Of a stretch of 40,098 nucleotides of DNA, positions 1 through 38,532 are shown one piece after another. A program made the translations under genes and the position numbers. Within the stretch, counting starts at the first letter, position 1. The number at the start of each line of letters is the position of its first letter. The stretch is from assembly GCA_023257495.1 (NCBI GenBank), contig JALRCC010000039.1:1-40098 (forward strand), in the 5' to 3' direction. A model generated the notes under the pieces. The model saw nothing but the letters and a program-made list of their open reading frames with translations, did no database searches and was not told the DNA's origin. Source of the stretch: Rugosibacter sp. (GTDB taxonomy: Bacteria; Pseudomonadota; Gammaproteobacteria; Burkholderiales; Rhodocyclaceae).

Positions 1-935
1 CCAAGGCGCTGCATGCGCTGGTACGCTGGATCGATGTCTGTGACGGCAATATGCAGGAGGGTTCCTTCCGCTGCGATGCCAACGTGTCGGTGCGCCCGGC
101 AGGGTCAACGACTTTGGGTACCCGCCGCGAGATCAAGAACCTGAACAGCTTCCGTTTTCTGCAGCAGGCGATCGAATACGAAGTGCGCTGGCAGATCAAC
201 GAGCTGGAAGACGGACGCGCGATCCAGCAGGCCACTGTGCTGTTCGACCCGGACAGCGGCGAGACACGCGCGATGCGCAGCAAGGAAGACGCGCATGATT
301 ACCGCTACTTCCCCGACCCGGATTTGCTGCCGCTGGAAATTACGCCGGCCTGGATTGACAACGTCCGGTCTGCCCTGCCGGAATTGCCGCAGCAACTGCA
401 AGCCCGTTTTGAAACGGACTATGGTCTGTCCGCCTATGACGCGGCCACCTTGACGGCATCGCGCGAGACGGCGGCCTATTTCACGGCGACTCTGGATGCC
501 GCCGGCATTGACAACGCCAAGCTCTGCGCCAACTGGGTCATGGGCGAGGTGGCGGCGCGTCTGAACAAGGAAGGGCTGGACATGGCCGCCGTACCGCTAG
601 CGCCGACTTTTCTCGCCGGCATCATCCGCCGCATCGCCGACAACACCATTTCCAACAAGATGGCGCGCGAAGTATTCGATGCCTTGTGGGCAGGCGAGGG
701 CGCGGACGCCGATGCGATCATCGCCGCGCGGGGCTTGAAACAGGTGACCGACAGCGGTGCGCTCGAAACGGTGATTGATGAAGTGCTCGCCGCCAACTCA
801 AAATCCGTGGCGGAATTCCGTGCCGGCAAGGAGAAAGCGTTCAATGCGCTGGTCGGCCAGGTAATGAAAGCGACCAAGGGCAAGGGTAACCCGCAACAGG
901 TGAATGAATTGCTGCGCAAAAAACTCGGGGCTTGA
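1..935 (+). CDS. gatB: Aspartyl/glutamyl-tRNA(Asn/Gln) amidotransferase subunit B, 3' part
   Basis: This is the C-terminal part of GatB; the reading frame is open to the left window edge (in frame from base 3), so the start is missing. GatB works with GatC and GatA to convert misacylated Glu-tRNA(Gln) or Asp-tRNA(Asn) to the correct amide form. The visible protein begins with the family's [20 protein letters not shown] stretch, followed by NVSVRP, the [11 protein letters not shown] motif and the [20 protein letters not shown] block. The C-terminal YqeY-like helical tail ends in [16 protein letters not shown] copy of the 25-bp interspersed motif falls in the linker before the tail domain and encodes APTF. 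The upstream gatC/gatA genes would lie outside the window. Identification is secure. Confidence 0.97.
587..611 (-). repeat. 25-bp bipartite interspersed motif, copy 1 (in gatB)
   Basis: On the minus strand this reads AAAAGTCGGCG, an 8-base spacer, then ACGGCG, an exact match to both arms. It lies inside gatB and is translated as APTF on the coding strand. Confidence 0.85.
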
Positions 936-971
936 TTACTGCGCGTGGTTATTCGCCGTTATTATTCCTTG

Positions 972-1655
972 CTAGCGCGCGGGGGGTGATTTTTTTGCTT
1001 GGGACTCACCGGGGACTGCGGGTACATCCGTAACTGCTGGCTCCGGTTTTTTACCGGTGAGGGTGAGATATTGCTCCTTTTCTGAAGCAAAACGAGCACG
1101 AACTTCTTCTATTTCTTTTGTCTGCGTCTCTACCGCTGTCTGCTGTGCACGTATTTCGCGCTCGTTATCCCGAATCAAGGATTGAGTCTTGGGTGGCAAC
1201 GGGTTATTTTTATAAGAAGCTTTTTCGCCATCCAGCTTTTTCTTCACTTTATTGGCCTCATCCAGTTTGGATTGAGACTGCTGAAGGTTCTTTTCCAGCA
1301 CGGTTAACGCGCGATCTCGGGCAGAATCAATTTCTTTTTCATTGGCATAGCTTGCCAGTAGTGCAGCTTTCTGTCTTTGCGCTTCCACTGCTTTGCGTTT
1401 TTCTACCTCTGCCCTGGCCAACTCTGCATCACGCCGGGCCTGCTGTTCAGCGGTAAGGGGCGCATCATATTTTTTGGATATTCTGCCTTGTCCATCACGC
1501 TCTTCATACGCACGATTTGCGCACTGGGGCGGCACAAAATCCGCGCACACCTTGCGACCCTTGGCGTCATCACAACAAAAAATGCGGGCTTGTGCTGCTG
1601 CTTCGCCTGCTACACATAGGGTCGTTGTCATTAACAGAGCAAAAAGCGGACGCAT
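972..1655 (-). CDS. Secreted DUF4124-like coiled-coil protein of unknown function
   Basis: Predicted 227-residue exported protein. Residues 1-22 form a signal peptide (MRPLFALLMTTTLCVAGEAAA). Residues 23-60 hold four cysteines (FCCDDAKGRKVC and PPQC) in an arrangement like the small DUF4124 domain. Residues about 70-200 are a long Ala/Glu/Lys/Gln-rich coiled coil, and the tail is Pro/Lys-rich. An AAGGAG ribosome binding site sits 6 bases before the ATG. It lies 21 bp downstream of pyrE on the same strand, so it is probably co-transcribed with it. It converges with gatB. The function is unknown; a periplasmic structural or envelope role is only a guess. Confidence 0.75.
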   Translation of the reverse strand: MRPLFALLMTTTLCVAGEAAAQARIFCCDDAKGRKVCADFVPPQCANRAYEERDGQGRISKKYDAPLTAEQQARRDAELARAEVEKRKAVEAQRQKAALLASYANEKEIDSARDRALTVLEKNLQQSQSKLDEANKVKKKLDGEKASYKNNPLPPKTQSLIRDNEREIRAQQTAVETQTKEIEEVRARFASEKEQYLTLTGKKPEPAVTDVPAVPGESQAKKSPPAR

Positions 1656-1676
1656 TGCAGTCTCCTTGAAAAAGTA

Positions 1677-2336
1677 TTATTCACTACCGTAACGTACCCG
1701 GTAATCACGTACTGCGGCAAGATACTCGATGAGCTCTGGCTGACCGGACAAATAATCAATAAGATCCGTTAAACGAGCAATGCTGAACACTGGGAGTCCG
1801 TACGATTGCTCAACTTCCTGAACAGCAGACAACGTGCCTTCGCCACGCTCCTGCCGATCAAGCGCAATCACTACTGCGGCAGGCGTTGCACCGGCTTGAC
1901 GAATGATCTCGACAGATTCGCGCACCGAGGTGCCCGCAGAAATAACATCATCAATGATCAGCACACGACCACTTAATGGGGCACCAACTAACACACCGCC
2001 CTCGCCGTGATCTTTGGCTTCTTTACGATTGTAGGCATAAGGCGTGTCGTGCCCTAGCCGCGATAAAGAAATCGCCGTGCCAGCCGCCAGAGGAATGCCT
2101 TTGTACGCAGGTCCAAACAGAACATCGAACTGTACACCTGAGGCAATTATCCGTTGCGCATAAAAATCACACAACCGAGACAAGGCAGCACCATGATGAA
2201 AGAGCCCCGCATTGAAAAAGTAAGGCGATAGACGCCCGGCCTTTGTTTTAAATTCACCAAACCGCAACACCCCTAGCTCACAGGCAAAGGCTATAAACTC
2301 CTGGCTTTGGCTCGTATTAATGGCATTTGCATTCAT
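1677..2336 (-). CDS. pyrE: Orotate phosphoribosyltransferase
   Basis: PyrE transfers a phosphoribosyl group from PRPP to orotate, giving OMP in pyrimidine synthesis in the cytoplasm. The protein shows the [21 protein letters not shown]-terminal block, the [12 protein letters not shown] loop, the [12 protein letters not shown] flexible catalytic loop and the PRPP-binding signature [13 protein letters not shown] near residue 125. Length (219-222 residues) is normal. The start at 2336 ([14 protein letters not shown]) is chosen because it fits the usual short N terminus; an ATG at 2345 adds three residues, and neither has a good ribosome binding site. It is divergent from xth with only 33 bp between the starts, so the two promoters must overlap the neighbouring coding region. 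Confidence 0.96.
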
Positions 2337-2369
2337 CCGAAGCATTCTACATCGACAGGGAAGTGTTAT

Positions 2370-3167
2370 ATGTTACGGGTTATCAGTTTGAATTTAAATG
2401 GGATTCGTTCTGCGTTAAACAAAGGTGTTATTGATTGGCTGACACAAGAAGCTGCAGACATTGTTTGCGTTCAGGAACTCAAAGCCCATGTTGCAGATAT
2501 TCCCGCCGTCGCACGAGCGCCGACTTTTTATCATAGCTACTTCCATGCGGCAGAAAAAAAAGGGTATAGCGGCGTTGGTATTTTTTCCCGCCAAATGCCA
2601 GACTGCATTGTCGAAGGTTTTAATAATCCCGAATTTGATGCTGAGGGCCGCTATATTCAGGCAAATTTTGGTCGTTTAACCGTCGTATCGCTATATCTGC
2701 CATCGGGATCCAGTTCTGAAGAGCGTCAATTAGCCAAGTTTCGTTTTTTAGAACAGTTCAAACCGAATCTGGAACAACTCGCGGCAGAAGCAAAAGCCGA
2801 CCAGCGGGAAGTTTTGTTATGCGGCGACTGGAACATTGCCCACCAGGAAATCGATCTTAAGAACTGGAAATCCAACCAAAAAAACTCGGGCTTTTTGCCT
2901 GAGGAGCGCGCCTGGTTGAGTAAGGTATTTGACGATCTTGGCTGGGTGGATGTTTATCGGCAACTACATCCCGAAGCAACGGGAGAAGCCTATACATGGT
3001 GGTCTAACCGTGGTCAGGCGTGGGCGAATAATGTGGGCTGGCGTATTGATTATCAAATCGCAACGCCTGGCCTGGCCAAGCTCGCACGTAGCGCTTCAGT
3101 TTATAAGGCGCAACGCTTTTCTGACCACGCACCGCTGATCATAGACTACGCGTGGCCTCTGGAATAG
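2370..3167 (+). CDS. xth: Exodeoxyribonuclease III (AP endonuclease)
   Basis: Member of the ExoIII/ExoA family, which cleaves abasic sites and degrades 3' ends during base excision repair. The 265-residue protein starts [19 protein letters not shown] and contains the metal and catalytic blocks [42 protein letters not shown], and the C-terminal [12 protein letters not shown] with [10 protein letters not shown]. The longer frame beginning at 2307 is rejected because the ATG at 2370 has an AGGGAAG ribosome binding site and begins exactly at the conserved N terminus. Residues APTF near position 50 are encoded by a copy of the 25-bp motif. Its partner pyrE is transcribed the other way. Confidence 0.95.
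2504..2528 (-). repeat. 25-bp bipartite interspersed motif, copy 2 (in xth)
   Basis: Both arms are exact on the minus strand with the 8-base spacer kept (spacer reads CTCGTGCG). It is translated as APTF in xth, the same coding phase as the gatB copy. Confidence 0.82.
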
Positions 3168-3259
3168 CCACAACAATCTACTCAAAGAACTTAAAACCTG
3201 CAGCCCATCCGCAAAGAAAAGTAAGACCCACCCTGCTGCATCGCACAGAACTTACCGCA

Positions 3260-6846
<3,587 letters not shown>

Positions 6847-7044
6847 ATAAACCTTTTAATATTTATTAGAAATAGTTGAATCTGTTAATAAATTAATATT
6901 AAATTATTAAATCAAATAGTTGCACTATCAATAACACTGGGGATTACTCATATTTTTAATTGTTGATTTTTGTTGGTTAAATTTCGTAATTTATTTTTTT
7001 CATACTTACTCACAAACAATCAACGCGTTAATTAAGTTTTTTAT
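6847..7044. other. AT-rich dnaA-dnaN intergenic region
   Basis: A 198-bp gap that is visibly much more AT-rich than the flanking genes, with long A/T runs around 6885-6915 and 6950-7000. TTACTCACA at 7006-7014 differs from the DnaA box consensus at two positions, and I find no exact DnaA box. It may hold a dnaN promoter; it is a weak candidate for an unwinding region. Confidence 0.4.
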
Positions 7045-8427
7045 TCAGGTTTTTAATGTTTGTATCAGTATGTGTAAATTGTTGCTTATTTCCAGATCGC
7101 TGACTTTAACTTCTGTGATTGTACGGCAGGCATGTATTACTGTTGTGTGATCACGGCCACCAAAAAAATCACCAATTTCAGGCAAACTGTGTGAGGTTAA
7201 TTCTCTTGCTAACCACATAGCAATTTGGCGGGGGCGCGCAATTGCTCTAGTCCGTTTTTTTGAGTGAAGCTCGGAAACTTTAATTTTGTAAAAATCTGAA
7301 ACTGTTTTTTGTATCTGTTCCAGTGAAATTTGTCGATTGGTTGCACTAATAATGTCTCTCAATGCATCTTTTGCGACATCCAAACTAATTTCTTTACCAT
7401 GAAACCCTGCGTAAGCTATTACTCTATTTAGAGCACCTTCAAGCTCTCTTACGTTGGATCGAAGGTTTTTGGCAACCAAAAAACACACTTCATCAGAGAT
7501 GGAAACCCCCTCTGCTTCAGCCTTTTTTTTCAAAATTGCTATTCGCATTTCAAGTTCAGGTGGATCGATTGTTACTGTTAATCCACAGTCAAATCGTGAA
7601 ATTAATCGCTCCTCTAATCCTTGAACATCTTTAGGATAAGTGTCCGAGGTGATGATAATCTGTTTTTTAGCTTCAATTAATGCATTGAAAGCATAAAAAA
7701 ACTCTTCTTGAGTTCTATCTTTTCGATTAAAAAACTGAATATCGTCTATGAGCAGTAGATCGAGTGATCGATAGTACTGTTTGAAGTTATCCCGACTATT
7801 TTGCTGAAAAGCGCGAACCATATCAGAGAAATAATCTTCTGCATGGACATAACGAATTTCCATAGCTGGATTGGCTGCATATATCGAATTGCCAATTGCA
7901 TGAATAAGGTGCGTTTTACCTAAACCAACGCCACCGTAAATAAATAGTGGGTTGTAGGACGTGCCAGGATTCATGGCGACTTGCTGTGCAGCAGCGCGAG
8001 CTAGGTCATTTGCTCGCCCGGTAACTAGAGTATTAAAAGTAAAATCTTGATTTAAGTGCGTTTTTTGGTAATTTGATTCACCATTTTTTTCTGATGGAGC
8101 TGTTTTTTTGGTTATTTTTTGAGGTATTTCGTGATTATCTTCCAGCTCGGGGTTGGGAAGGGAGCTTTCTGGAATAGGCTCAGTGACAGACAGTTGAATA
8201 GTGATCGGGTGTGCAAAAAAGTCGTTTCCCAGCGCTTCAATTTGGGTTAGATATCGTTCTCGAACCCATTGCATAATGAATCTGTTGGGAGCAATCAGCT
8301 GATATTGGGTGTTGTTTTTGGGATCAATTTCCAAACGTAACCCTTTAATCCAGGTGTTGAATTGCTGCGCAGGAAGCTCTTGCTCAAACCAGTTTAAACA
8401 GATAGACCAAAATTCGTGCATTAACAT
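7045..8427 (-). CDS. dnaA: Chromosomal replication initiator DnaA
   Basis: DnaA-ATP binds 9-bp boxes at the origin, melts the DNA and recruits the helicase. The 460-residue protein has domain I (1-80, FWSICLNWFEQELPAQQFNTWI), a Lys/Glu/Asn-rich linker (about 85-130), the AAA+ domain from about 130 (Walker A GGVGLGKTHLIHAIG near 165-180; Walker B LLLIDDIQF near 230; sensor region RFDCGLTV), and the domain IV DNA-binding helix-turn-helix with GGRDHTTVIHA near the C terminus. The start could be 8427 or 8421 (MHEFW). A perfect DnaA box about 100 bp upstream suggests autoregulation. It is divergent from rpmH, the classic arrangement. Confidence 0.98.
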   Translation of the reverse strand: MLMHEFWSICLNWFEQELPAQQFNTWIKGLRLEIDPKNNTQYQLIAPNRFIMQWVRERYLTQIEALGNDFFAHPITIQLSVTEPIPESSLPNPELEDNHEIPQKITKKTAPSEKNGESNYQKTHLNQDFTFNTLVTGRANDLARAAAQQVAMNPGTSYNPLFIYGGVGLGKTHLIHAIGNSIYAANPAMEIRYVHAEDYFSDMVRAFQQNSRDNFKQYYRSLDLLLIDDIQFFNRKDRTQEEFFYAFNALIEAKKQIIITSDTYPKDVQGLEERLISRFDCGLTVTIDPPELEMRIAILKKKAEAEGVSISDEVCFLVAKNLRSNVRELEGALNRVIAYAGFHGKEISLDVAKDALRDIISATNRQISLEQIQKTVSDFYKIKVSELHSKKRTRAIARPRQIAMWLARELTSHSLPEIGDFFGGRDHTTVIHACRTITEVKVSDLEISNNLHILIQTLKT

Positions 8428-8628
8428 TACGGATGATTAGATTAGAAAACGTAAAAAATATACTTGGTTGTTTTTTGTTGGATTAAAGAAAGCTTGCGAT
8501 CACCGATTCTAGCGATTTTAATATGAGTTATCCACAGATATTCTATTAGCTGGGTTGATTGGCTCACTTGACTAGGTTTTTATAACATGTTCTAATGAAT
8601 GGTTTTTTTATTTGTTGAGAGATTTTTC
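8428..8628. promoter_or_regulatory. dnaA-rpmH divergent regulatory gap with one DnaA box
   Basis: A 201-bp AT-rich gap between divergent dnaA and rpmH. It contains one perfect DnaA box, TTATCCACA at 8528-8536. In many proteobacteria this gap is the origin, but origins usually carry several boxes and only one is seen here. The site could serve dnaA autoregulation. Confidence 0.6.
8559..8586 (+). promoter_or_regulatory. Possible sigma-70 promoter of rpmH-rnpA
   Basis: TTGGCT at 8559-8564 and TATAAC at 8581-8586 are separated by 16 bp and lie about 43 bases before rpmH. The match is moderate. It would drive rpmH and the co-directional genes that follow. Confidence 0.4.
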
Positions 8629-8763
8629 ATGAAACGTACATATCAACCTTCCGTTATACGGCGTAAACGTACCCATGGCTTTCTTGTTCGCATGCGTACC
8701 CGTGGTGGGCGTGCTGTTATTCGAGCACGTCGGGCTAAGGGACGTCACAGCCTTGCGGTTTGA
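8629..8763 (+). CDS. rpmH: 50S ribosomal protein L34
   Basis: A 44-residue, very basic protein starting [18 protein letters not shown] and ending [11 protein letters not shown], the invariant L34 pattern. L34 is a small structural component of the large ribosomal subunit. Its stop overlaps the TTG start of rnpA, so the two are translationally coupled. It is divergent from dnaA. Confidence 0.98.
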
Positions 8764-9140
8764 TTCCAAACTCATTTAGCTTTGGTGTCGAGAGGCGATT
8801 ACACACCCCGAATGAGTTTTCGGGTGTGTTTTCATCTCGGCAGGTGGTTCGGGGTGGGTTAAATTCCCCTTTTATATTGCATTTTCGGTTACTTGGAAAT
8901 CAGAGTTTGCCGCGTTTGGGGGTTGTTGTTCCCAAGAGGCTTGTTAAAAAGGCTTTTTTAAGGAATGCGGTTAAAAGACAAGGGCGTGAAGCCTTTCGTC
9001 TGTTTGCAAACGAGCTCCCGTCGTGTGACCTGATTTTAAGGGTTCACCGTCCTTTAGGCTCTGTAAAGCACCCTGCGTGCAAGGATTGGCGGCTACTGAT
9101 AGATGATTTATTGAAGCGCTTGGTCGCCCAGCAACCTTGA
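8760..9140 (+). CDS. rnpA: Ribonuclease P protein component
   Basis: Protein cofactor of RNase P, which trims the 5' leader of tRNA precursors. The 126-residue protein shows the [16 protein letters not shown]-terminal start of the fold and the RNA-binding signature [20 protein letters not shown] near residues 60-80, followed by DLILRVHRP. The TTG start overlaps the rpmH stop (TTGA); no alternative start codon fits before the conserved region. It is followed within 3 bp by yidD. Confidence 0.94.
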
Positions 9141-9143
9141 AAA

Positions 9144-9365
9144 ATGACTTCTTGGCCTGTAAAGATTTTCCTGTTTATGATCCGTTCTTATCAATGGGCG
9201 ATTAGTCCGTTGATAGGAAATTGTTGCCGCTTCGAGCCTAGTTGCTCTAATTACGCGATATTGGCTCTGCGTAAGAAGGGGTTAGTTGTTGGAATATGGC
9301 TGACCATATGCCGAGTGATTCGTTGTCACCCATGGCACCCTGGTGGTTATGATCCAATACCTTAG
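9144..9365 (+). CDS. yidD: Membrane protein insertion efficiency factor YidD
   Basis: A 73-residue YidD family member. The visible signature is YQWAISPLIGNCCRFEPSCSNYA followed by CHPWHPGGYDPIP; described here in part: residues 16-38 and 61-73, with the conserved cysteines and an amphipathic N-terminal helix. YidD is thought to help YidC-dependent insertion at the inner face of the membrane. It lies between rnpA (3 bp upstream) and yidC (32 bp downstream), its standard position. Confidence 0.95.
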   Translation: MTSWPVKIFLFMIRSYQWAISPLIGNCCRFEPSCSNYAILALRKKGLVVGIWLTICRVIRCHPWHPGGYDPIP

Positions 9366-9397
9366 TAAAATTCAAATGCTTAATAGCTGAGAGAGTT

Positions 9398-11029
9398 ATG
9401 GATAACCGCCGATTAGTATTGATTCTTGTATTCAGCTTCTCGCTTGTCATGCTGTGGAATGGCTGGCAGGGGTCTGTTCAACCTAAAAACACATCAGCAA
9501 CCCAGGCGACTTTTGTGAGTGATTTACCCTCACGCGGGGCGGATGTTCCTGCTACCAGCATTCCCACCGCTGAAGGAACCGCTGGATTAGCGGAAGCAGC
9601 TATTAAAGAGGCTGCTAAGGTTGAAGTGATCAAGGTGGAAACCGACTTGTTTTTGGCAGAAATATCCCCTCGGGGAGGGGATATTGTCCGTTTAGAATTG
9701 AAGAAACACCATGATTCTAAGGATAAAAATCGCGCATTTACTCTTTTTGATGCAGGTGAACATCATGTTTACAACGCTCAATCTGGCGCTATCGGTGAAG
9801 GTTTGCCTAACCATCGGAGCATGTGGCGTGTTGTCGGTGAATCACGCCATCTAAAGGAGGGGGATAATACGCTGAGTGTCCAGCTCGTTTCTGATTTTCC
9901 TGATGGTAAGCAGGTAGTAAAGACTTACATTTTTCATCGCGGAAGCTATCAAATCAGCGTTCAGCATGAAGGTTTGCCTGTGGGATCTTCTACTTATTAC
10001 CAATTTACTCGTGATGGGAAACCTGCAGAAGAACATGGTAATCCCATGATGATAGGGACGTCGACCTTTACCGGCCCAGCGGTATTTACAGAGTCGGAAA
10101 AGTTCCAAAAAGTGAGTTTCTCTGACATTACTAAAAATAAAGCTAAATTTGCAACGAAAGCCGATAACGGTTGGCTCGCTATGGTGCAGCATTATTTCTT
10201 TGCCGCCTGGTTGCCACCTCAGGGCGTTGCTCGCGAGTTTTATATGCGACCGATTGGAGCAGATCTTTATTCTGCAGGTGTCATCTTGCCTGTGGGTGCT
10301 GATGGCAAAAGTTCAGTATCGCTTTACGCGGGTCCCCAGGAATTGCAGAATCTCAAAGCTATTGCCCCAGGGCTGGATCTGGTGGTGGATTATGGCTGGC
10401 TGACAGTGATTGCCGCACCTCTGTTTTGGGTGTTAGGTGTTATCCATAAACTTACAGGTAATTGGGGTTGGGCAATTATCCTGCTCACTGTTCTGATCAA
10501 GCTGGTGTTTTTCCCTCTATCTGCAGCTAGCTATAAATCCATGGCCAAGATGCGCTTGGTTACTCCGAAACTAGCTAAGCTGAAAGAGACTTACGGGGAT
10601 GACAGGATGCGGCTTAACCAGGAAATGATGGCGCTTTATAAAAAGGAGAAGATTAATCCGCTGGGTGGTTGTTTGCCTATCCTTATTCAAATTCCTGTTT
10701 TTATTTCGCTATATTGGGTTCTTCAAGGCACGGTAGAGATGCGTAATGCACCTTGGATTGGCTGGATTCAAGACTTATCGGCGCAAGATCCCTACTATGT
10801 TCTGCCACTGCTCATGGGGGTTACCATGTTTATTCAGACCAAACTGAACCCCGCTCCACCGGATCCTTTGCAGGCTAAGGTGATGTTAATGATGCCAATT
10901 TTATTCACGGGTATGTTTTTGTTCTTTCCAGCAGGCTTGGTGTTGTACTGGACTGTCAATAATCTGTTATCTATCGCCCAGCAGTGGCAAATTACCCGGG
11001 CGATTGAATCGGCAAGTAAGCCAGCATAA
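9398..11029 (+). CDS. yidC: Membrane protein insertase YidC
   Basis: YidC inserts and folds inner-membrane proteins, alone or with SecYEG; substrates include ATP synthase subunits c and a, encoded further down this window. The 543-residue protein has an N-terminal membrane anchor (residues 5-22, LVLILVFSFSLVMLWNGW), a large periplasmic beta domain (about 60-345), and the conserved 60KD_IMP core from about residue 355 (GNWGWAIILLTVLIKLVFFPLS, the MRLVTPKLAKLKETYGDDR loop, NPLGGCLPILIQIPVFISLYW), ending with further membrane segments. The long periplasmic domain is typical of Gram-negative bacteria. A GAGAGAG ribosome binding site precedes the ATG. Confidence 0.98.
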   Translation: MDNRRLVLILVFSFSLVMLWNGWQGSVQPKNTSATQATFVSDLPSRGADVPATSIPTAEGTAGLAEAAIKEAAKVEVIKVETDLFLAEISPRGGDIVRLELKKHHDSKDKNRAFTLFDAGEHHVYNAQSGAIGEGLPNHRSMWRVVGESRHLKEGDNTLSVQLVSDFPDGKQVVKTYIFHRGSYQISVQHEGLPVGSSTYYQFTRDGKPAEEHGNPMMIGTSTFTGPAVFTESEKFQKVSFSDITKNKAKFATKADNGWLAMVQHYFFAAWLPPQGVAREFYMRPIGADLYSAGVILPVGADGKSSVSLYAGPQELQNLKAIAPGLDLVVDYGWLTVIAAPLFWVLGVIHKLTGNWGWAIILLTVLIKLVFFPLSAASYKSMAKMRLVTPKLAKLKETYGDDRMRLNQEMMALYKKEKINPLGGCLPILIQIPVFISLYWVLQGTVEMRNAPWIGWIQDLSAQDPYYVLPLLMGVTMFIQTKLNPAPPDPLQAKVMLMMPILFTGMFLFFPAGLVLYWTVNNLLSIAQQWQITRAIESASKPA

Positions 11030-11098: not shown

Positions 11099-12445
11099 AT
11101 GGCCAGTAGTGCTGTAGACACAATCGCTGCAATTGCTACGGCGGCTGGTCGTGGCGGTATCGGAATTGTCCGTATTTCCGGGCGCGATTTATTGCCGTTT
11201 GCTCATCAGTTAAGCCAAAAAATACCTGTAGCGCGCCGTGTTACCACCGCCGACTTTTTTGCGGAGGATGGCTCTGTGATTGATCGCGGTGTTTTACTCT
11301 ATTTTTCTGCTCCGCATTCTTTCACGGGTGAAGATGTGATTGAGTTGCAGGGTCATGGTGGTTCGGTTGTGATGCAGATGTTGTTGGCGCGTTGTGTTGA
11401 GCTTGGGGCACGCATTGCCCAACCCGGTGAATTTTCTCAACGTGCTTTTCTGAATGACAAAATGGACCTCGCCCAGGCTGAGGCGGTGGCTGATCTGATT
11501 GATGCCGGAACGGCTGCTGCAGCGCGATCGGCATTACGTTCCTTATCTGGTGATTTTTCTCGCGAAGTCCAGGCGTTAGTGGCGCAGTTAATAGAATTGC
11601 GCATGCTGATTGAAGCGACGTTAGATTTTCCTGAAGAAGATATTGATTTGCTTCAGCAGACTGATGTGGCCGAGAGGTTGAGTAATTTCTCTTTAGGTCT
11701 GAATAAGCTTCTACAGCGCGCCCGCGCGGGTAGCATTCTGCGCGAAGGCTTGTATGTCGTGTTAACGGGTTTGCCCAATGTAGGTAAATCCTCGTTGATG
11801 AATTGTTTATCGGGTGAAGACCGTGCGATTGTGACCGAGCATGCAGGAACCACGCGCGACGTGTTGCGTGAAACGATACAGGTGAATGGTATTCCGTTGC
11901 ATATTATTGATACGGCCGGATTGCGCGCCACCGAAGATCCGGTTGAAAAGATGGGGATTAGTCGCGCCTGGCAAGAACTGGACCGTGCCGATGTTGTTCT
12001 TCAGCTGGTTGACGCGAGGGTAGGAATCACAGAGGCTGATCGAATGATTTCTGCGCAACTCCCTTCCGGTGTAGAGCGGCTGGTTATCGAGAATAAGTGT
12101 GACTTGGCTGGTAAGCCGTCACAGCGGTTAGAGCTCGATGGATTGGTGCACTTGTGTTTGTCCGCCCGCAGTGGTGAGGGTATTGATCTACTACAGGATG
12201 AGTTATTGCGTATAGCAGGTTGGGTAGATGCGGGTGAGGATGTTGTTCTTGCGCGTGCGAGGCACATTGAAGCGCTTACGCATGCGGCCGAAAAGTCGGC
12301 GCTGGCGGAACGGCAGTTGGGCCAACCCGAGCTTTGCGCAGAAGAGTTGCGATTGGCGCAGATGGCTCTATCCAGTATTACAGGAGAGTTTTCATCCGAT
12401 GATTTGCTGGGCGAGATATTTTCTCGGTTTTGTATCGGAAAATAA
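11099..12445 (+). CDS. mnmE: tRNA modification GTPase MnmE
   Basis: With MnmG it installs the carboxymethylaminomethyl group on U34 of certain tRNAs. The 448-residue protein has the N-terminal tetrahydrofolate-binding domain (DTIAAIATAAGRGGIGIVRISG; FTGEDVIELQGHGG), a helical domain, and a circularly linked G domain from about 215 (G1 GLPNVGKSSL, G3 DTAGLR, G4 NKCDLAGK). It ends FSRFCIGK with the catalytic cysteine that marks the family. Two copies of the 25-bp motif lie inside the gene in opposite orientations. The gap to mnmG, its functional partner, carries two parS sites. Confidence 0.98.
   Translation: MASSAVDTIAAIATAAGRGGIGIVRISGRDLLPFAHQLSQKIPVARRVTTADFFAEDGSVIDRGVLLYFSAPHSFTGEDVIELQGHGGSVVMQMLLARCVELGARIAQPGEFSQRAFLNDKMDLAQAEAVADLIDAGTAAAARSALRSLSGDFSREVQALVAQLIELRMLIEATLDFPEEDIDLLQQTDVAERLSNFSLGLNKLLQRARAGSILREGLYVVLTGLPNVGKSSLMNCLSGEDRAIVTEHAGTTRDVLRETIQVNGIPLHIIDTAGLRATEDPVEKMGISRAWQELDRADVVLQLVDARVGITEADRMISAQLPSGVERLVIENKCDLAGKPSQRLELDGLVHLCLSARSGEGIDLLQDELLRIAGWVDAGEDVVLARARHIEALTHAAEKSALAERQLGQPELCAEELRLAQMALSSITGEFSSDDLLGEIFSRFCIGK
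11234..11258 (-). repeat. 25-bp bipartite interspersed motif, copy 3 (in mnmE)
   Basis: Exact in both arms on the minus strand, spacer GTGGTAAC. On the coding strand it is translated in the ADF phase (TTADFF), unlike copies 1 and 2. Confidence 0.83.
12291..12315 (+). repeat. 25-bp bipartite interspersed motif, copy 4 (in mnmE)
   Basis: First arm exact; second arm ACGGCA (5 of 6), spacer CTGGCGGA. It is translated as EKSAL in mnmE, a third coding phase, and is oriented opposite to copy 3 in the same gene. Confidence 0.8.
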
Positions 12446-14435: not shown

Positions 14436-15070
14436 CTTTAGGCATTCAGTTGCAACAAGGTCTGATGGCATTAGGGTTGGCGCTGCCAGATAGTGCTCAG
14501 GCGAAACTTCTTGCCTACCTGAGTCTGCTAAAAAAATGGAATGCCACGTATAACTTGACGTCCATACGTGAAGAATCTGCGATGTTAACGCAGCATCTAT
14601 TTGATTCTTTGAGCATATTGCCACATATTGAAAAGTCGGCGCTGGTGACACGGCGCTGGATTGACGTTGGAAGCGGTGCTGGCCTGCCGGGTGTTCCTTT
14701 GGCCATTGCCTGCCCCCAATTACAGATGGCTCTGATTGATTCCGTGGACAAAAAGACAGCATTCCAGCGTCAGGTAAAAATTGAGCTTGGGTTATCAAAT
14801 TTAACCATTTTGGGTGGCAGGGTCGAAAACCAGTCCGCTGCGCAATGCGATGCTGTGATATCGCGTGCATTTGCCGAATTGAAGGATTTTGTCTCGCTGG
14901 CAGGACATCTGCTGGTGGAGGGTGGCACGCTTTACGCCATGAAAGGGCAGATGCCCCATGAAGAAATTGCTCGGCTTCCTGCGGAGTGGCATGTCATCCA
15001 GTGTTTGCCACTGGAAGTGCCAGGGATGATGGCTGAGCGCCATTTGATTGTTCTACAGAAAAGGCCCTGA
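14432..15070 (+). CDS. rsmG: 16S rRNA (guanine527-N7)-methyltransferase RsmG
   Basis: Methylates G527 of 16S rRNA using SAM (also called GidB). The 212 residues show the N-terminal helix region ([24 protein letters not shown]), the SAM-binding motif [17 protein letters not shown] near 75-90, [12 protein letters not shown] and the [11 protein letters not shown] block near 145-155. Start ATG overlaps the mnmG stop by 4 bp. A copy of the 25-bp motif encodes [10 protein letters not shown] just before the SAM motif. Confidence 0.97.
14631..14655 (+). repeat. 25-bp bipartite interspersed motif, copy 5 (in rsmG)
   Basis: Both arms exact, spacer CTGGTGAC. Translated EKSAL, the same phase as copy 4. 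Confidence 0.85.
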
Positions 15071-16789: not shown

Positions 16790-16814
16790 CAGCGTATCAC
16801 CAGCGCCGACTTTT
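16790..16814 (-). repeat. 25-bp bipartite interspersed motif, copy 6 (parB-atpI intergenic)
   Basis: The first arm is exact on the minus strand and the spacer is the consensus CTGGTGAT, but the second arm is weaker (ACGCTG). CTGGTGATA at 16731-16739 is an inverted partner of TATCACCAG at 16795-16803, and CCGAGG (16724-16729) can pair with CCTCGG (16777-16782). This copy therefore lies in a potential stem-loop after parB. Confidence 0.78.
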
Positions 16815-16933: not shown

Positions 16934-16973
16934 CGCGCGGCTTTGAGCCGTGCAACCTTGGAAGGTTTGATTG

Positions 16974-24697: not shown

Positions 24698-25291
24698 TTA
24701 ATTCAACCGCTGTAGCCTTTTTTCCAGACGCGCGATATCGTCACGTAGCTTATGGACATCGGCTGAAAAGTCGGCGATGGGGATACGGCGAATTAGCGCT
24801 GGTTGTTCTTCGGTTAGATATTCACTGATATTTTCTGCCAGAGCCATGGCGAATTTTTTCTGGCTCGCCAAAAATAAGTGAGCGCCTGCTACCAGTCGAT
24901 GAGAGATGACGTCACCCAGTACGTGGGAAAGGTCTTCTTCCACGTCCCAGCGCAGGTGTTGTAAAACGTATCCAAGGGTTTGTGCAAATTCTGCTGAACC
25001 GCTGATGCGTGCCGCACGCATGATTGCTGCATGGCCTTGTAGCGCCAGGAAAGGGGTGCTGGTGGGCAGGTCAATCAATACGGCAGGTTCCACATCGCTC
25101 GTTGATGCAATGAGCAAACCTTCTGGTGTCACGTCAAACACCATTGAAAAAGGTGGGAAGGATATTTTTGCGCACAAGCCTGAAAATGGTTGCAATCTCG
25201 CTCGCGCCCAAGCAGCCTGATCAAGTAGATGATTAACCGCCGCGACAGCAGCTTTCATGGCAACTGGCGCGGGATCAGGCAACGTGGGCAT
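24698..25291 (-). CDS. ubiJ: Ubiquinone biosynthesis accessory factor UbiJ (SCP2 domain)
   Basis: UbiJ binds hydrophobic ubiquinone intermediates in the soluble Ubi complex. The 197 residues contain an SCP2 lipid-binding fold (about 20-120: VNHLLDQAAWARARLQPFSG, then the beta region VFDVTPEGLLIAS) and a C-terminal helical segment ending FSADVHKLRDDIARLEKRLQ, a coiled coil typical of UbiJ. It begins 8 bp after the Tim44-like gene, in the order ubiE, Tim44-like, ubiJ. No ubiB follows, unlike the usual arrangement. A copy of the 25-bp motif encodes IADFSAD. Confidence 0.88.
   Translation of the reverse strand: MPTLPDPAPVAMKAAVAAVNHLLDQAAWARARLQPFSGLCAKISFPPFSMVFDVTPEGLLIASTSDVEPAVLIDLPTSTPFLALQGHAAIMRAARISGSAEFAQTLGYVLQHLRWDVEEDLSHVLGDVISHRLVAGAHLFLASQKKFAMALAENISEYLTEEQPALIRRIPIADFSADVHKLRDDIARLEKRLQRLN
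24766..24790 (+). repeat. 25-bp bipartite interspersed motif, copy 7 (in ubiJ)
   Basis: Both arms exact, spacer ATGGGGAT. ubiJ is on the other strand and reads it in the ADF phase. Confidence 0.85.
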
Positions 25292-32337: not shown

Positions 32338-32339
32338 GT

Positions 32340-34481
32340 TTATTCCGAGGTTGTTTTCTGGCTACCAGCGAGGAGCAGCCACAAGCTGACTTCGCCCCCA
32401 TCGTGGTTGGCCAGGCGAATTTCTCCACCATGGTCATCAATGATTTTTTTCACGATGGCCAAACCCAAACCGGTGCCCTTGGTTTTGGTGGTGACATAGG
32501 GTTCAAAGGCGCGCGCCAGCATTTGGGGTGAAAAGCCCGTGCCGTTATCGTGCAAGGTGAGGCGTACGCGGTGTTTGTCTTGCTCGATGCGAATATCGAT
32601 GCGCGGTTGCGCAACGTTTGCCAGGGCATCTTGCGCATTGGCGAACAGGTTATGCAGCACTTGACGTATTTGATTGGTGTCTGCAAGAACATGCGCAAAA
32701 GTCGGCGCTGGTGAGACGGTGAATTGAGTCGGTGTATTTTCATACAGCGCCAGTACATCGATAACCAGCGCATATAAATCCACTTCGGCGAGCTGCGGGG
32801 GCGGCGTGCGTGCGTAATCACGGAAATTATTCACCATGCTTTTGAGCGCTTCCACCTGGGTAATGATGGTGTGGGTGGCGCGGTCAAGTAACGCGCGGGA
32901 AGGTTCATCCAGAATTGCTCCGAGCTTCATGTGCAAGCGCTCGGCAGATAATTGAATGGGCGTGAGCGGGTTTTTGATTTCATGCGCCAGACGCTGTGCA
33001 ACTTCAGCCCAGGCGGCAGAGCGTTGTGCCGAGATAAGGCGCGTGATGTCGTCAAACACCACGACAAACCCACCACTACTCGTCATCGGTAGCGTGGTGC
33101 CGCGAATCAGCAGCGTTTGCGGTGCGTGATCCTCATGTGTCAGGTCAAGTTGTTGCTGCCATTCTTCGCCATACCGGGCAAAGCCCTCAATGATCGTCAT
33201 CGCCAGTGTGTGATGACGCGGCCAATCCGCGAGCGGTATTTTTTCAAATGCCGCCAGATCATCATGCAAAATCGTGAGCGCGCCACGGTTTGCCGCGCGC
33301 AAATGAAAATCCGTCCTGAACGCAAGCACGCCGGCAGATAAATTGCCCAGCACACTTTCCAGATAGGCTTGCGCAGCCTCGGTTTTTTCGCGTTGAAGAT
33401 CAGCTTCTGCACGGGCTTCGCTCAATTGGCGGGTCATGTTGTTGAACGAACGCGTCAGAAGCCCCAGTTCATCAGAGGTTTCAATGATCGTGCGCGGCGT
33501 GAAATCACCTGCTGACACGGCTCGCGTGCCTTCCGCAAGTATCAGCAATGGTTGCGCCAGGCGTTCGGCTAGAAGAAAAGCCAGCGCGACAGCGGCGAAC
33601 AAGGCCAGCATCAAGGTCAGTGTCAACGTCAGCGTGTAAATGCGCTTAAGACCGCTGCGGCCCAATTGCAGCTCTTGATAATTACGGTAGCCCGCTTCAG
33701 CATTGCTGGCGTTTTTAGCAATCGCTGCGGGAACGCGCTGGGTAAATTGCAGAATGCGTGGTTCAAATTCGAGCAGATGGGTCGTATTGGCAATGACCGG
33801 TACGAGCGTGCGAATCGTCAGGCCTTCTGCAGCCTCTTCACTCACCAGCGCGAGGCCGCGCCCACTGCGGGCGCTGCGCAACTGGTTGGTGCTGGGCACC
33901 TGTGGCAAGAGATTGTTCAAGCTGCCCACACTGCTGGCAATGGTTTGGCCGGAGAGCGTGAGCAGTGTGGCGGTGTCGACACCCATTTGTTCGCGCAGAA
34001 GATTGAGCTGACTCGCTGCGGATTCAACACCCGGCAGCGTTTGGCTATCGCCGAGTTTAAAAGCAGCGGTGCGGGTTTTTTCCAGTAAATCATTCTGCAA
34101 GTTATCGAGCACGCTACGGCCAAGTTCCAGTCCGCCCTCCAATGCGCGATCAACGCGTACATCAAACCAGGAATCGATGCTATTGACGGCAAATTGCATG
34201 GAGACGGCATATACCAAGGCACCTGGCAGCACGGCCATCAAGGCTAGCATCACCAAGAGACGCGACTTGAGCCGCGCGCCAAAAACACCCGCTTTGAAAT
34301 CGCGCCGCAAGCGAATCAGCTGGGCTGCGACCATGACTAACATGCCCAGTGCGGCGAGCCCGTTCAATGCCAGCAGCCAAGGGTAATACTGGGCAAAGAA
34401 AGCGGTGTTTCCCGAGGTAAATGCCAGTAAAAAAAGCAATACCGCAGCTAAAGTGGCGGCCAGAATGAGTGCCAGCTTCAT
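32340..34481 (-). CDS. ntrY: NtrY-type sensor histidine kinase
   Basis: Membrane sensor kinase of a two-component pair with NtrX, linked in other bacteria to nitrogen, redox or envelope responses. From the ATG at 34481 it has 713 residues: two or three N-terminal membrane segments (MKLALILAATLAAVLLFLLAF, WLLALNGLAALGMLVMV, LLVMLALMAVLPGALVYAV), a periplasmic region, another membrane helix (LTLTLTLMLALFAAVALAFLLAE), HAMP, a PAS region, the histidine motif QRLAHEIKNPLTPIQLSAE and an ATPase domain (LHDNGTGFSPQML, GTGLGLAIVKKIIDDHGG). Its start overlaps the stop of the DUF4390 gene (ATGA). A 25-bp motif copy encodes SPAPTF. Confidence 0.92.
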   Translation of the reverse strand: MKLALILAATLAAVLLFLLAFTSGNTAFFAQYYPWLLALNGLAALGMLVMVAAQLIRLRRDFKAGVFGARLKSRLLVMLALMAVLPGALVYAVSMQFAVNSIDSWFDVRVDRALEGGLELGRSVLDNLQNDLLEKTRTAAFKLGDSQTLPGVESAASQLNLLREQMGVDTATLLTLSGQTIASSVGSLNNLLPQVPSTNQLRSARSGRGLALVSEEAAEGLTIRTLVPVIANTTHLLEFEPRILQFTQRVPAAIAKNASNAEAGYRNYQELQLGRSGLKRIYTLTLTLTLMLALFAAVALAFLLAERLAQPLLILAEGTRAVSAGDFTPRTIIETSDELGLLTRSFNNMTRQLSEARAEADLQREKTEAAQAYLESVLGNLSAGVLAFRTDFHLRAANRGALTILHDDLAAFEKIPLADWPRHHTLAMTIIEGFARYGEEWQQQLDLTHEDHAPQTLLIRGTTLPMTSSGGFVVVFDDITRLISAQRSAAWAEVAQRLAHEIKNPLTPIQLSAERLHMKLGAILDEPSRALLDRATHTIITQVEALKSMVNNFRDYARTPPPQLAEVDLYALVIDVLALYENTPTQFTVSPAPTFAHVLADTNQIRQVLHNLFANAQDALANVAQPRIDIRIEQDKHRVRLTLHDNGTGFSPQMLARAFEPYVTTKTKGTGLGLAIVKKIIDDHGGEIRLANHDGGEVSLWLLLAGSQKTTSE
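32697..32721 (+). repeat. 25-bp bipartite interspersed motif, copy 8 (in ntrY)
   Basis: First arm exact, second arm ACGGTG (5 of 6), spacer CTGGTGAG. ntrY, on the other strand, reads it in the APTF phase. Confidence 0.8.
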
Positions 34482-35122
34482 GGCGTGATTCCTGTCCCGG
34501 ATCCGGTGGCAGGCGCGGTAAATTGCCACTCGATGGTTTTGGCGTTGATGCGCCAATCGCTGTCAGTGATGGCATCGATCTGCAAGGGCTTGGGCAACTG
34601 GCTGTGATCCAGCGACAAGCGCACGCGCGCAATATAAGTTTCGCCCGGGGTGATGGCTTGGCGGGTGACGAGGGGCAAGGCATGGATGCGTGAAACAACA
34701 CGCAAGGCCTCGTTCAACGTGTTAAAACTTTGATACAAACTGCTATTGCCTGCCTGGGCACCCTGTGTCACGCGGGATACGCGATATTGGCGCGTCAGTC
34801 CGTGATAACTCAGGCGATAGGTCGCGTTGAGCGTGGCGATGTGCTCGTTGCTCCAATATTTTCTTGGTCGCTCAAGGACGGCTTCAAAATCAAAATACAG
34901 CGGGATGCCATGCGTTACCACGTCATCCAGACGACGTCCGAGGTCAATGGCGAATTCAGCCGTGAGTGCGTAATTTTCTTCATTCGGGGCAATGCTTGCG
35001 CGTTGCGCTTCGATGCTACCGGCGAATGCGACCGATGCACAACTCGTTAACAGGATGCATGAAAGCATCAGCAAAAGCTGCCGGATGCAAGCCCCGTAAA
35101 AATTTAACCGAGCGCCTAGCAA
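34478..35122 (-). CDS. DUF4390 exported protein
   Basis: 214 residues with an N-terminal signal (RQLLLMLSCILLTSCASVAFA); LTSC could be a lipobox but the AFA site just after is an equally good type I cleavage site, so lipoprotein or secreted protein is undecided. The remainder (SIAPNEENYALTAEFAIDLG, VVTHGIPLYFDFEAVLERPR, YRLSYHGLTRQYRV) matches the DUF4390 pattern of a periplasmic beta-rich protein. It sits between rsmB and ntrY and overlaps ntrY by 4 bp, a fixed neighbourhood in betaproteobacteria, so it may help NtrY sense envelope state (inference). Confidence 0.85.
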   Translation of the reverse strand: MLGARLNFYGACIRQLLLMLSCILLTSCASVAFAGSIEAQRASIAPNEENYALTAEFAIDLGRRLDDVVTHGIPLYFDFEAVLERPRKYWSNEHIATLNATYRLSYHGLTRQYRVSRVTQGAQAGNSSLYQSFNTLNEALRVVSRIHALPLVTRQAITPGETYIARVRLSLDHSQLPKPLQIDAITDSDWRINAKTIEWQFTAPATGSGTGITP

Positions 35123-35155: not shown

Positions 35156-36460
35156 TTATTTTTTTTGGAGCAGTGCGTAAAAAAAGCCGTCATGGTCGGC
35201 ATGCGGTAAAAGCTGCATGGAGGGCGCGCCATCAATGGCCAGGCGCTGGGCATCGGCATGCCGGCCGACAAAGGCAGCCACCTGATTTTCATTTTCGGCA
35301 GTAAACACGGAACAAGTCGCATAGAGCATTTTGCCACCGCTAGCGAGCGTGCGCCAGAGCGCATCAAGAATGCGGATTTGTGTAGCTGCGAAGTGTTCAA
35401 TATCACTGACGCGGCGCAGCCATTTGGCATCCGGATGACGGCGCACGACGCCCGAGGCCGTACAAGGAACATCGGCCAGAATGCGATCAAACGGTTGGCC
35501 ATCCCACCAGGTGGCAGGCAGACACGCATCGCCCGTGCGTACCTGAACATGGTCTGAGCGCAGGCCCAAGCGCACAAAGTTTTCAGTGATTCGCCCGGCG
35601 CGGATAGGGTCTGCATCGAGCGCGAGCAAGTGTAGATCGGCAAGCTCCAGCAAATGTGCCGCTTTACCCCCGGGCGCGGCACAGGCATCCAGCGCACGCT
35701 GGCCGGGTTGCACATCCAGTAACAGGGCGGCGCGTTGTGCACCAGCGTCTTGCACTGAGCAAAGTCCCTCGCGAAAGCCGGGGATTTTTTCTATCGGGAC
35801 GGGCCTGTCGAGTCGCCAGGCTGTCTCGCCCACGGCGCGGGCAGTTAATCCGGCGGCTGTGAGTCGCGCTGAAAAGTCGGCGTTGGTGATACGGCGCAGA
35901 TTGACCCGCAACGTCATGGGCGGATGCGTATTGCTGGCCGCAAGAATGGCCTGCCAATGGTGCGGATGATCTTTTTTCAGGCGCGTGATCCACCAGGCGG
36001 GATGTTGATAGTGGGCGACAGGATTTTCTTTGGTGCGTGCCAGCAGCTCGTCCTGGCGACGCAAAAAGTTACGCAGCACGCCATTGACCAAGCCTTTGAA
36101 ATTGCCTGCAGCCAAATGCGATGCCGCAGTAACCGCTTGATCGACAATTGCGTAAGCATGTTCCGGTCGGGTTGTCAGACGATTGAGCGTGATCAGCAAC
36201 AAGCAGCGCACGTGCACATCGGTCAAGGGTTTTGCCATCAGTTGCGCGAGCAGAAAATCCCCCTGGCCAAAGCTGCGCAACGTGGAATAGGCCAAATCCA
36301 TCACCGCTGCACGCAGGGGGCCGGTAGGTGGCGTTGCAGAAAGCACGGTGTCGGCCAGTGCCGCATCCAGCGTGCGGCCTGAAATGACAGCAGCCAGAAG
36401 GTCAGTCGCGCCCAGCAGAGCGGTTGCAAGGGGCGCGGATCGGGAAGGTTGATCAGTCAT
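35156..36460 (-). CDS. rsmB: 16S rRNA (cytosine967-C5)-methyltransferase RsmB
   Basis: Methylates C967 of 16S rRNA with SAM. The 434 residues have an N-terminal NusB-like RNA-binding domain (about 1-160) and a C-terminal methyltransferase with the SAM motif LDACAAPGGKAAHLLEL (about 255-270), the DRILADVPCTASGVVRRHPD motif with one catalytic cysteine and LYATCSVFTAENE with the second. The gene follows htpX and precedes DUF4390. The protein segment ITNADFSARL is encoded over a 25-bp motif copy. Confidence 0.96.
   Translation of the reverse strand: MTDQPSRSAPLATALLGATDLLAAVISGRTLDAALADTVLSATPPTGPLRAAVMDLAYSTLRSFGQGDFLLAQLMAKPLTDVHVRCLLLITLNRLTTRPEHAYAIVDQAVTAASHLAAGNFKGLVNGVLRNFLRRQDELLARTKENPVAHYQHPAWWITRLKKDHPHHWQAILAASNTHPPMTLRVNLRRITNADFSARLTAAGLTARAVGETAWRLDRPVPIEKIPGFREGLCSVQDAGAQRAALLLDVQPGQRALDACAAPGGKAAHLLELADLHLLALDADPIRAGRITENFVRLGLRSDHVQVRTGDACLPATWWDGQPFDRILADVPCTASGVVRRHPDAKWLRRVSDIEHFAATQIRILDALWRTLASGGKMLYATCSVFTAENENQVAAFVGRHADAQRLAIDGAPSMQLLPHADHDGFFYALLQKK
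35872..35896 (+). repeat. 25-bp bipartite interspersed motif, copy 9 (in rsmB)
   Basis: Both arms exact, spacer TTGGTGAT. rsmB, on the other strand, reads it in the ADF phase (NADFS). Confidence 0.87.
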
Positions 36461-36574
36461 GACGACAGTCTACCGTGGCAGGCTGACATCGTGGCTTTCT
36501 TTGCGTCAGGAAAATCCTGTATCCGCACCCCCACAGGCTGCAACGACTGTAGCACTGACAATGGTTACAACAGG

Positions 36575-37420: not shown

Positions 37421-37675
37421 GTCATGCTCCTGTAGTTAAGGGGTTCAGCCGGGCATTCTTTCATGAACATGAGCGGTCATCAAAGTATGCCGTATGAAGT
37501 AAATTGCATTACCCGGCATTGGATTGGGGCGGGCGGAAAAAATTCAATCGCCAGCGGGCTATATTTTTGCGCTACATTAGCGCTACCATTGCCGCGCGGA
37601 AGATGAAAAATCATGATCCGCGAGCTGGGGGGACTCCATTTTAGTGATTACAACAACCTCAAGGAGAATCGTCTG

Positions 37676-38254
37676 ATGTCTATCATTTTTCAATCGTTGG
37701 GCCGGACAGTGATTGCCGGTATCGTGATACTTGCGCTGCTGCTGGTTTTTGCAGGCACCGGGCTGACCAATGGCATGGCACATGCCATCGGCCTGCGCTG
37801 GCTGCATGTAGGTAGCGGCGTGATGTGGATTGGTTTGCTGTGGTATTTCAACTTCGTGCAAATTCCGTCCATGCCCAAAATTCCGGACGAGCAAAAACCA
37901 GCCGTCAGTAAAGTGATCGCGCCCACCGCGCTATTCTGGTTCCGCTGGGCTGCGCTGGCCACGGTGGTCACTGGTTTGCTGGTCGCCATGAATGCGCATT
38001 ATCTGGTGCAAGCCTTGACCCTGACCGACCCGGCACGCACCATCGGCATTGGCATGTGGCTGGCGCTGGTGATGGCCTTTAACGTCTGGTTCATCATCTG
38101 GCCGAACCAGAAAAAGGCGTTGGGCATTGTGGTGGTTGAAGCGGCCGAAAAAGCCAAGGCCGCCCGCATGGCCATGCTGACCTCACGTTTCAACACGATG
38201 CTCTCTATCGCCATGCTGTACTGCATGGTCGCTCAGCAGAACGGCGGTTTGTAA
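37676..38254 (+). CDS. Membrane protein of the urate hydroxylase PuuD N-terminal type (DUF989-like)
   Basis: 192-residue integral membrane protein with about five hydrophobic helices (10-28, 40-58, 82-104, 118-142, 165-185). The sequence LRWLHVGSGVMWIGLLWYFNFVQIPSMP is given here in part as HVGSGVMWIGLLWYFNF, a motif shared with the membrane part of PuuD. Conserved histidines suggest a possible heme or metal site. There is no C-terminal cytochrome domain, so urate oxidation should not be assumed. The ATG at 37676 is chosen for the AAGGAG ribosome binding site and family start. It is divergent from htpX. Confidence 0.7.
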   Translation: MSIIFQSLGRTVIAGIVILALLLVFAGTGLTNGMAHAIGLRWLHVGSGVMWIGLLWYFNFVQIPSMPKIPDEQKPAVSKVIAPTALFWFRWAALATVVTGLLVAMNAHYLVQALTLTDPARTIGIGMWLALVMAFNVWFIIWPNQKKALGIVVVEAAEKAKAARMAMLTSRFNTMLSIAMLYCMVAQQNGGL

Positions 38255-38295
38255 CCCATCCGCCGCATTGGCATAAAAAGGTGCGAATGTGTAAC

Positions 38296-38333
38296 TAACC
38301 GGACCTGCGCAGTTTCTTGCGCAGGTCCGGTTA
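38296..38333. terminator. Perfect 16-bp inverted repeat, possible terminator
   Basis: TAACCGGACCTGCGCA, a 6-base loop, then its exact reverse complement. It lies 41 bp after the membrane protein gene and could fold into a very stable hairpin, but it lacks a long T run (TTACTTCTT follows), so termination is uncertain. Confidence 0.6.
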
Positions 38334-38507
38334 CTTCTTGGGTTGCTGGTTTCTAACGACACTGTAGAAAAAGTCTATTCATCGCCGCCTTCTGATGTGA
38401 ACCCAATGGAATCTGCGCCACAACAAGTGGCTGAACCGCTTCACACTGAGAGGTCAGAAGAAGTTCGACGGGCAATGGAAGCCTTGCTCCCTGCCGGCCG
38501 GTCCGCG

Positions 38508-38532
38508 AAAAGTCGGTGCTGATGAAACAACT
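38508..38532 (+). repeat. 25-bp bipartite interspersed motif, copy 10 (degenerate, in mobile element)
   Basis: First arm AAAAGTCGGTG (10 of 11), spacer CTGATGAA, second arm poor (ACAACT). A right-arm half copy, ATGGCAAT then ACGGCG, follows at 38579-38592. Confidence 0.5.

Follow-up and report, generated by a model that had tools for sequence, protein, structure and literature searches.

The 40,098-nucleotide stretch of Rugosibacter sp. DNA considered here (contig JALRCC010000039.1; "the window" below means this whole stretch) carries repeated copies of a two-part, 25-bp motif that is very probably a DNA uptake sequence. We regard this as the best-supported reading because the abundance of the motif, its strand symmetry, its dialects, its placement in the core genome, its absence from a desert of mobile DNA and the accompanying machinery match what is known of uptake sequences. 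An explanation of the class represented by the DNA uptake sequences (DUS) of Neisseriaceae and the uptake signal sequences (USS) of Pasteurellaceae fits better than any rival that we considered, and the motif most likely belongs to a third, undescribed system of this kind. A fuller account, which we hold to be probable, places this third system in free-living environmental betaproteobacteria, independent of the Neisseriaceae and Pasteurellaceae. It would use a 25-bp two-patch signal and a receptor other than the ComP-family pilin that we tested, it would have at least two and probably four or more dialects within one family, and its drive would have lengthened and rewritten a loop of RsmG (KSALAGRR) across a clade.

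Abundance, form and placement of the word

The motif was noticed in the window as AAAAGTCGGCG, an 8-base spacer and ACGGCG, and the sequence-only reading proposed counting it over the whole genome and its relatives. Such counts lie far above reversed-word, Markov and synonymous-codon controls, and the copies are neither near chance nor confined to the window, either of which that reading would have taken as fatal to a genome-scale signal: single genomes hold up to 341 exact copies. This highest count belongs to genome G021, with 170 copies on the plus strand and 171 on the minus strand and none of the reversed control word. Synonymous-codon shuffles gave no exact copies, compared with 10 and 23 observed inside genes.

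Among public genome contigs, exact matches occur in at least 120 stretches, and the titles of the 80 listed are nearly all Rhodocyclaceae, Sulfuritalea, Rugosibacter or betaproteobacteria. The odd titles among the matches listed are one Fimbriiglobus and one Puniceicoccaceae metagenome-assembled genome (MAG), each with one exact copy. MAGs titled Gammaproteobacteria, Burkholderiaceae and Propionivibrio hold 247, 184 and 162 exact copies, respectively; all three were also drawn in the family-level search, which fits mislabelled titles or broad taxonomy. A Thiobacillus-titled MAG (L012, G011) holds seven exact copies, for which import, mis-binning and a weak dialect were not distinguished.

Our family set comprised 395 genomes of G021's family, the name Rhodocyclaceae resting on record titles. 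By hand tally, 84 of the 395 contain at least one exact copy and 47 at least ten, compared with five exact matches in all for the reversed control over the same genomes. With up to three mismatches allowed, copies number roughly 300-800 per genome, and 72 of the 395 genomes stand at 2.5 times the control or more (again by hand tally); 14 of these 72 have no exact copy and 11 have one to nine, a pattern that marks dialects. At the level of the order (399 genomes, AAAGTCGGCGCTGGYG with one mismatch), G021, G050, G109 and G076 stand out, all of them also in the family draw, and no other genome exceeds seven matches to this pattern, which is too narrow to pick up distant dialects like the G299 one. 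At the sensitivity used, the motif is restricted to one family. Nor did k-mer scans reveal an uptake-like word in G112 and G058 (400 kb each) or in G051, G037, G390 and G143 (80 kb each), whereas 80-kb pieces of G173 and G021 gave one. Two of these genomes have abundant words of another sort. In 80 kb of G037 (L287, L286, L288) there are 40 copies of TGTGGGAGCGGC, most of them paired in inverted orientation at a distance of about 70 bp within a single 20-kb stretch, in the manner of repetitive extragenic palindromic (REP) elements, and the abundant word of G051 is, apart from one copy, a single 12-bp tandem array (L283:6203-6308) within a long open frame.

Taken together, 128 sites with up to two mismatches on both arms, from 780 kb of G173 and G021, give as consensus a single word of about 26 bp, AAAAGTCGGCGCTGGYGRBACGGCGA. 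Its conserved stretch spans 26 positions between flat flanks and amounts to about 38 bits (column sum), a slightly inflated value given that the sites were selected on 17 of the 26 positions. The free 8-base spacer of the sequence-only reading proved wrong for this dialect, in that CTGGYG inside it is conserved at 60-96% per position; of the degenerate positions, 16 (C/T), 18 (A/G) and 19 (rarely A), only 19 is nearly free. The numbers of sites in G173 at zero to four mismatches are 16, 19, 15, 11 and 34, against order-4 Markov expectations of 0, 0.33, 0.33, 3.67 and 34. This distribution is bimodal, with many sites at zero to two mismatches, a trough at three and background from four up. De novo k-mer ranking with k=10 and k=12 likewise placed motif words on top in both genomes.

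Lineage-specific dialects exist; they are clear in G050 and G299 and mixed in G054 and G273. The G050 word has A, G or C at position 1, then AAAGTCGGCG, CTGGC and ACGGC, and ends in ACGGCA, with A25 in 86% of 50 listed copies, which are the lower-mismatch ones. The G299 word reads AAAAGTCAGTC...GCRRBACGGCG with positions 12-14 variable, and among 100 listed copies it has A8 in 92%, T10 in 73% and C11 in 70%. In G054, 25 of 49 listed copies (up to two mismatches) have A8 and 37% have G1, and in G273 the 50 low-mismatch copies listed differ among themselves, some having T at position 7, some G at position 1 and some G at position 3. AAAGTC, G9 and ACGGC are constant across G050, G299 and G173/G021. 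A further dialect may exist in a Sulfuritalea-type clade, where the rsmG copies of several genomes read AAGAGTCGGCG; at 15 non-ascertained sites elsewhere, position 1 is G in 53% and position 3 is A in 73%.

On the chromosome, the 128 sites comprise 88 inside called genes, 35 in intergenic DNA and five across gene edges, genes having been called with a simple codon-usage script. Intergenic copies are over-represented, 35 of 128 falling in about 10% of the DNA. All six reading frames are used, with codon phases 0:1:2 distributed as 2:6:30 in sense and 18:6:26 in antisense. The complete G173 genome (2,934,611 bp) carries 285 copies at up to one mismatch, 140 on the plus strand and 145 on the minus strand, with 30 and 20, respectively, in its first 380 kb. 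If the origin is placed near coordinate 0, as GC skew and the position of mnmG (2.93 Mb) indicate, the plus copies of G173 number 68 and 72 per chromosome half (the first 100 are listed, to 2,145,494, and the other 40 of 140 are placed beyond by listing order), and there is no replichore polarity in this one complete genome. In G021 the copies are spaced more evenly than chance would have it (values as low arose in 48 of 5000 simulations), and those in G173 are clumped through one gap.

An 82-kb desert in G173, at about 60.4-142.3 kb, has no copies at up to two mismatches where 13.7 are expected (P about 1e-6, before correcting for choice of the largest gap). When 18 of its 79 called genes (L124-L128) were put to Pfam, they matched a serine recombinase, a D5-type primase, terminase gpA, portal and tail proteins, together with a type III restriction enzyme, GmrSD, DUF3375 and SbcC-like proteins and, of other kinds, a symporter, a chaperonin and an HMA-domain pyridine-nucleotide oxidoreductase. 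PADLOC identified JetA, JetC and JetD (Wadjet) and a type III restriction enzyme. Base composition does not explain the absence of sites, because windows with and without them are similar in mean GC (0.556 and 0.575 in G173; 0.625 and 0.613 in G021). From this one desert, the motif is depleted over newly acquired DNA. The region holds prophage genes beside a defence cluster, and SNF2 helicase genes too. The converse arrangement appears in G112, a genome at background level overall in which several near-consensus copies cluster at 1.46-1.50 Mb. An 18-kb piece of G112 there (1,488,001-1,506,000; L331) looks imported: besides three near-consensus copies it contains a set of RND efflux genes and a transposase-like gene with an integrase core, as would be expected of imported DNA.

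Copies in the window and their history

We scanned the window for AAAAGTCGGCG-N8-ACGGCG at up to three mismatches and compared the result with 100 dinucleotide shuffles. Nine copies were found, whereas the shuffles averaged 0.16 and never gave more than 2, which bears out the earlier claim of a motif far above chance. The nine clear copies and a degenerate tenth lie where the sequence-only reading had placed them, and our recount agrees with its account of the arms: six copies have no arm mismatch, two have one and one has two. They are as follows, with open reading frames (ORFs) given by coordinates and strand.

587..611, minus strand: motif copy, both arms exact; antisense in gatB (ORF 51-935, plus)
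2504..2528, minus strand: motif copy, both arms exact; antisense in an endonuclease/exonuclease/phosphatase-family gene (ORF 2307-3167, plus)
11234..11258, minus strand: motif copy, both arms exact; antisense in mnmE (ORF 11099-12445, plus), codons from 46
12291..12315, plus strand: motif copy, 1 mismatch; sense in mnmE, codons from 398
14631..14655, plus strand: motif copy, both arms exact; sense in rsmG (ORF 14432-15070, plus), codons from 67
16790..16814, minus strand: motif copy, 2 mismatches; intergenic, between parB (end 16712) and the next ORF (16971-17309)
24766..24790, plus strand: motif copy, both arms exact; antisense in an SCP2/UbiJ-like gene (ORF 24698-25291, minus)
32697..32721, plus strand: motif copy, 1 mismatch; antisense in a sensor histidine kinase gene (ORF 32340-34556, minus)
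35872..35896, plus strand: motif copy, both arms exact; antisense in rsmB (ORF 35156-36460, minus)
38508..38532, plus strand: degenerate copy, first 18 bases with 2 mismatches, second arm apparently lost; no gene assigned

Across both arms, the last of these has four mismatches, which is chance level (two sites seen in the exactly-four class, 2.67 expected). Nonetheless, only two of its first 18 bases depart from the full consensus, where 0.03 sites are expected at exactly two mismatches, and it is therefore probably a genuine copy whose second arm has been lost.

The copy in rsmG, a gene named here from gene order and alignment rather than by hidden Markov model (HMM), is common to most motif-bearing relatives. 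From codon 67 it encodes KSALAGR, in a loop ahead of the stretch that binds S-adenosylmethionine. The rsmG of G351 has no site at codon 67 within three mismatches. That of G010 (L236) carries a long insertion at this point of the loop, and in that of G018 (L237) two motif-like peptides flank a longer loop insertion.

A tree of MnmG places every motif-bearing row in one 46-row group (98/98), which also holds four motif-free genomes (G112, G063, G143 and G058); the five rows outside it are all motif-free. Rows were labelled by exact counts, and G050 and G054 are thus marked "neg" though they bear the motif. On this single gene tree, the simplest history would be one gain followed by losses.

The probable role in uptake and its rivals

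If the motif is an uptake sequence, free DNA that carries it would be preferentially bound and pulled in by type IV pilus machinery; the two patches AAAGTC and ACGGC, within about 25 bp, would be read by a receptor on the cell surface, probably one of the minor pilins. Recombination of the imported DNA into the chromosome would spread the word by molecular drive, and the word would build up on either strand of the shared chromosome, in whichever frames the encoded protein can bear, while recently arrived mobile DNA would stay motif-free. Changes of the word in step with its receptor would yield lineage-specific dialects. We infer, rather than observe, the uptake preference, the receptor and the drive.

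Both known systems offer close parallels, described here from excerpts of the papers cited. Strong uptake preferences are reported there in two bacterial families only (PMC7811141). The DUS of Neisseriaceae, whose receptor is ComP, are likewise non-palindromic and genome-wide, are gathered in the core genome, have lineage dialects that follow phylogeny and are missing from some members of the family (PMC3630211), and their uneven distribution has been used to find mobile elements (PMC7371117). They differ in being continuous words of 10-13 nt present in about 1900 copies or more per genome (PMC3630211), compared with 25-26 nt and roughly 300-800 copies at up to three mismatches here, and in that a ComP-family pilin is present here yet not tied to the motif. 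By eye, and against the 10-mer quoted in the excerpt of PMC3630211, our consensus contains no 10-12-nt DUS related to GCCGTCTGAA. The USS of Pasteurellaceae resemble the present word in being long composites (up to 32 nt, a 9-nt core being followed by further parts downstream) with two patches about two helical turns apart, in having dialects and in being depleted in newly acquired segments (PMC12616744, PMC7811141). The AAAGT start and following CGG recall the Hin-USS AAAGTGCGGT by eye, a likeness that may be due to chance. The downstream parts of USS are AT-rich, whereas the second patch here, ACGGCG, is GC-rich, and the consensus does not match the 9-nt core AAGTGCGGT or ACAAGCGGT, as given in the excerpt of PMC12616744, with AT-rich downstream parts. 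We found no description of the motif in the literature, in searches that included the AAAAGTCGGCG string and DNA uptake sequence with Rhodocyclaceae and that covered few subscription papers.

The com and pil genes that the sequence-only reading suggested looking for are present. ComEC (PF03772) occurs in 52 of 53 genomes, and an operon in G173 encodes PilW, GspH/FimT-like and other N-methyl pilins, a ComP_DUS-family pilin and a LamG/DUF6701 protein. The last, of 1312 residues (L297:8285-12223), is possibly a pilus-tip or adhesive part.

A number of results nevertheless weigh against uptake. ComEC is found in motif-free genomes as well and does not discriminate them from motif-bearing ones, and ComP_DUS-family pilins (PF16732) occur in 25 of 29 motif-rich genomes and in 26 of 28 without exact copies. 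A close relative (E 1e-20 or better) of the ComP-family pilin of G173, a member of the Rugosibacter clade, is present in 29 of 43 motif-bearing and five of 10 motif-free genomes and is missing from G021, the richest genome. ComEC as a motif-tracking factor and the ComP-family pilin as a receptor were both rejected on these counts, and co-occurrence tests of PF16732 pilins, ComEC and the G173 minor pilin across genomes did not find a receptor. The density of about one copy per 5-7 kb is several-fold below that in Neisseria or Haemophilus. The loop of rsmG with its copy is at least four residues longer than in most motif-free relatives, which suggests that not every copy arose by point mutation. 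Finally, only one inverted pair less than 100 bp apart occurs among the 128 sites. Such close pairs are common as transcription terminators in Neisseria and Pasteurellaceae, according to the excerpt of PMC1852404; they are not a defining trait of uptake sequences.

Among the candidates of the sequence-only reading, abundance, dialects, the mobile-DNA desert and the lack of polarity favour an uptake signal, and the same results speak against a chromosome-organising site and a recombination signal. A site for a chromosome-organising or division-placing protein, of the Noc, SlmA, MatP or FtsK orienting polar sequence (KOPS)/FtsK kind, would account for many evenly spread copies and for the regular spacing in G021, and is improbable all the same: along G173 the listed plus copies show neither enrichment nor depletion nor polarity, and the word, besides being long and asymmetric, differs from one relative to the next in the form of fixed dialects, whereas ParS, MatS and similar sites are strongly conserved. 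The motif also avoids the prophage and defence region, which sites of nucleoid proteins need not do, though they could. Quite improbable, too, is a Chi-like recombination signal or another signal of biased gene conversion, that is, molecular drive without uptake. Substitution-driven spread in core genes, dialects and drive would look alike under it, but Chi-type sites are short and oriented along replication, and the motif is 25-26 bp long without orientation.

High copy number might also point to a self-copying mobile short repeat, similar to REP elements or to miniature inverted-repeat transposable elements (MITEs), and the extended rsmG loop and the G018 insertion flanked by two motif peptides would suit one. 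We consider this very unlikely, since the motif has no inverted-repeat structure and no conserved flanks outside its 26 bp, 88 of 128 copies lie inside genes, and at mnmE codons 46 and 398 the motif-free relatives align with the copies gap-free (by eye; three positions were examined in all). The REP word of G037, by contrast, stands mainly in inverted pairs, mostly in one stretch. That the motif is an artefact of chance or codon usage is scarcely conceivable; pieces such as CGGCG and CTGG are common in GC-rich genes, yet with order-4 Markov, reversed-word, dinucleotide and synonymous-codon controls the counts fall to near zero in every case, which refutes it.

Should the uptake reading be right, this third independent case would permit a comparative approach to the long-debated matter of whether genomic uptake words can arise from uptake bias alone. 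It would also supply a fresh set of dialects for a receptor search by co-variation, and would reveal barriers that limit gene exchange among bacteria of wastewater and groundwater. The word could serve as a genomic watermark, a few copies in a motif-free genome indicating imported DNA (as in G112) and deserts in a motif-rich genome indicating mobile elements (as in G173). DUS-like tagging may extend to a third bacterial family and to uncultured and environmental lineages.

Setting of the window

In the 51-row MnmG tree, the window falls in a six-row set (98/96) with G272, G173, G028, G013 and G025, of which G013, G025 and G028 are genomes with Rugosibacter-titled loci. We take it to cover the origin region because of its HMM-named genes, which are gatB, pyrE, gyrB, dnaN, dnaA, yidC, mnmE, mnmG, parB, an iron superoxide dismutase (Fe-SOD) gene, ubiE and priA, and further NtrY/NtrX-like genes, rsmB and htpX. 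The GC skew flips sign at about 8 kb (window 7000-9400), next to dnaA, as expected for a replication origin. Near the far end, an ORF of 213 residues on the plus strand (37613-38254) has a partial urate oxidase N-terminal match.

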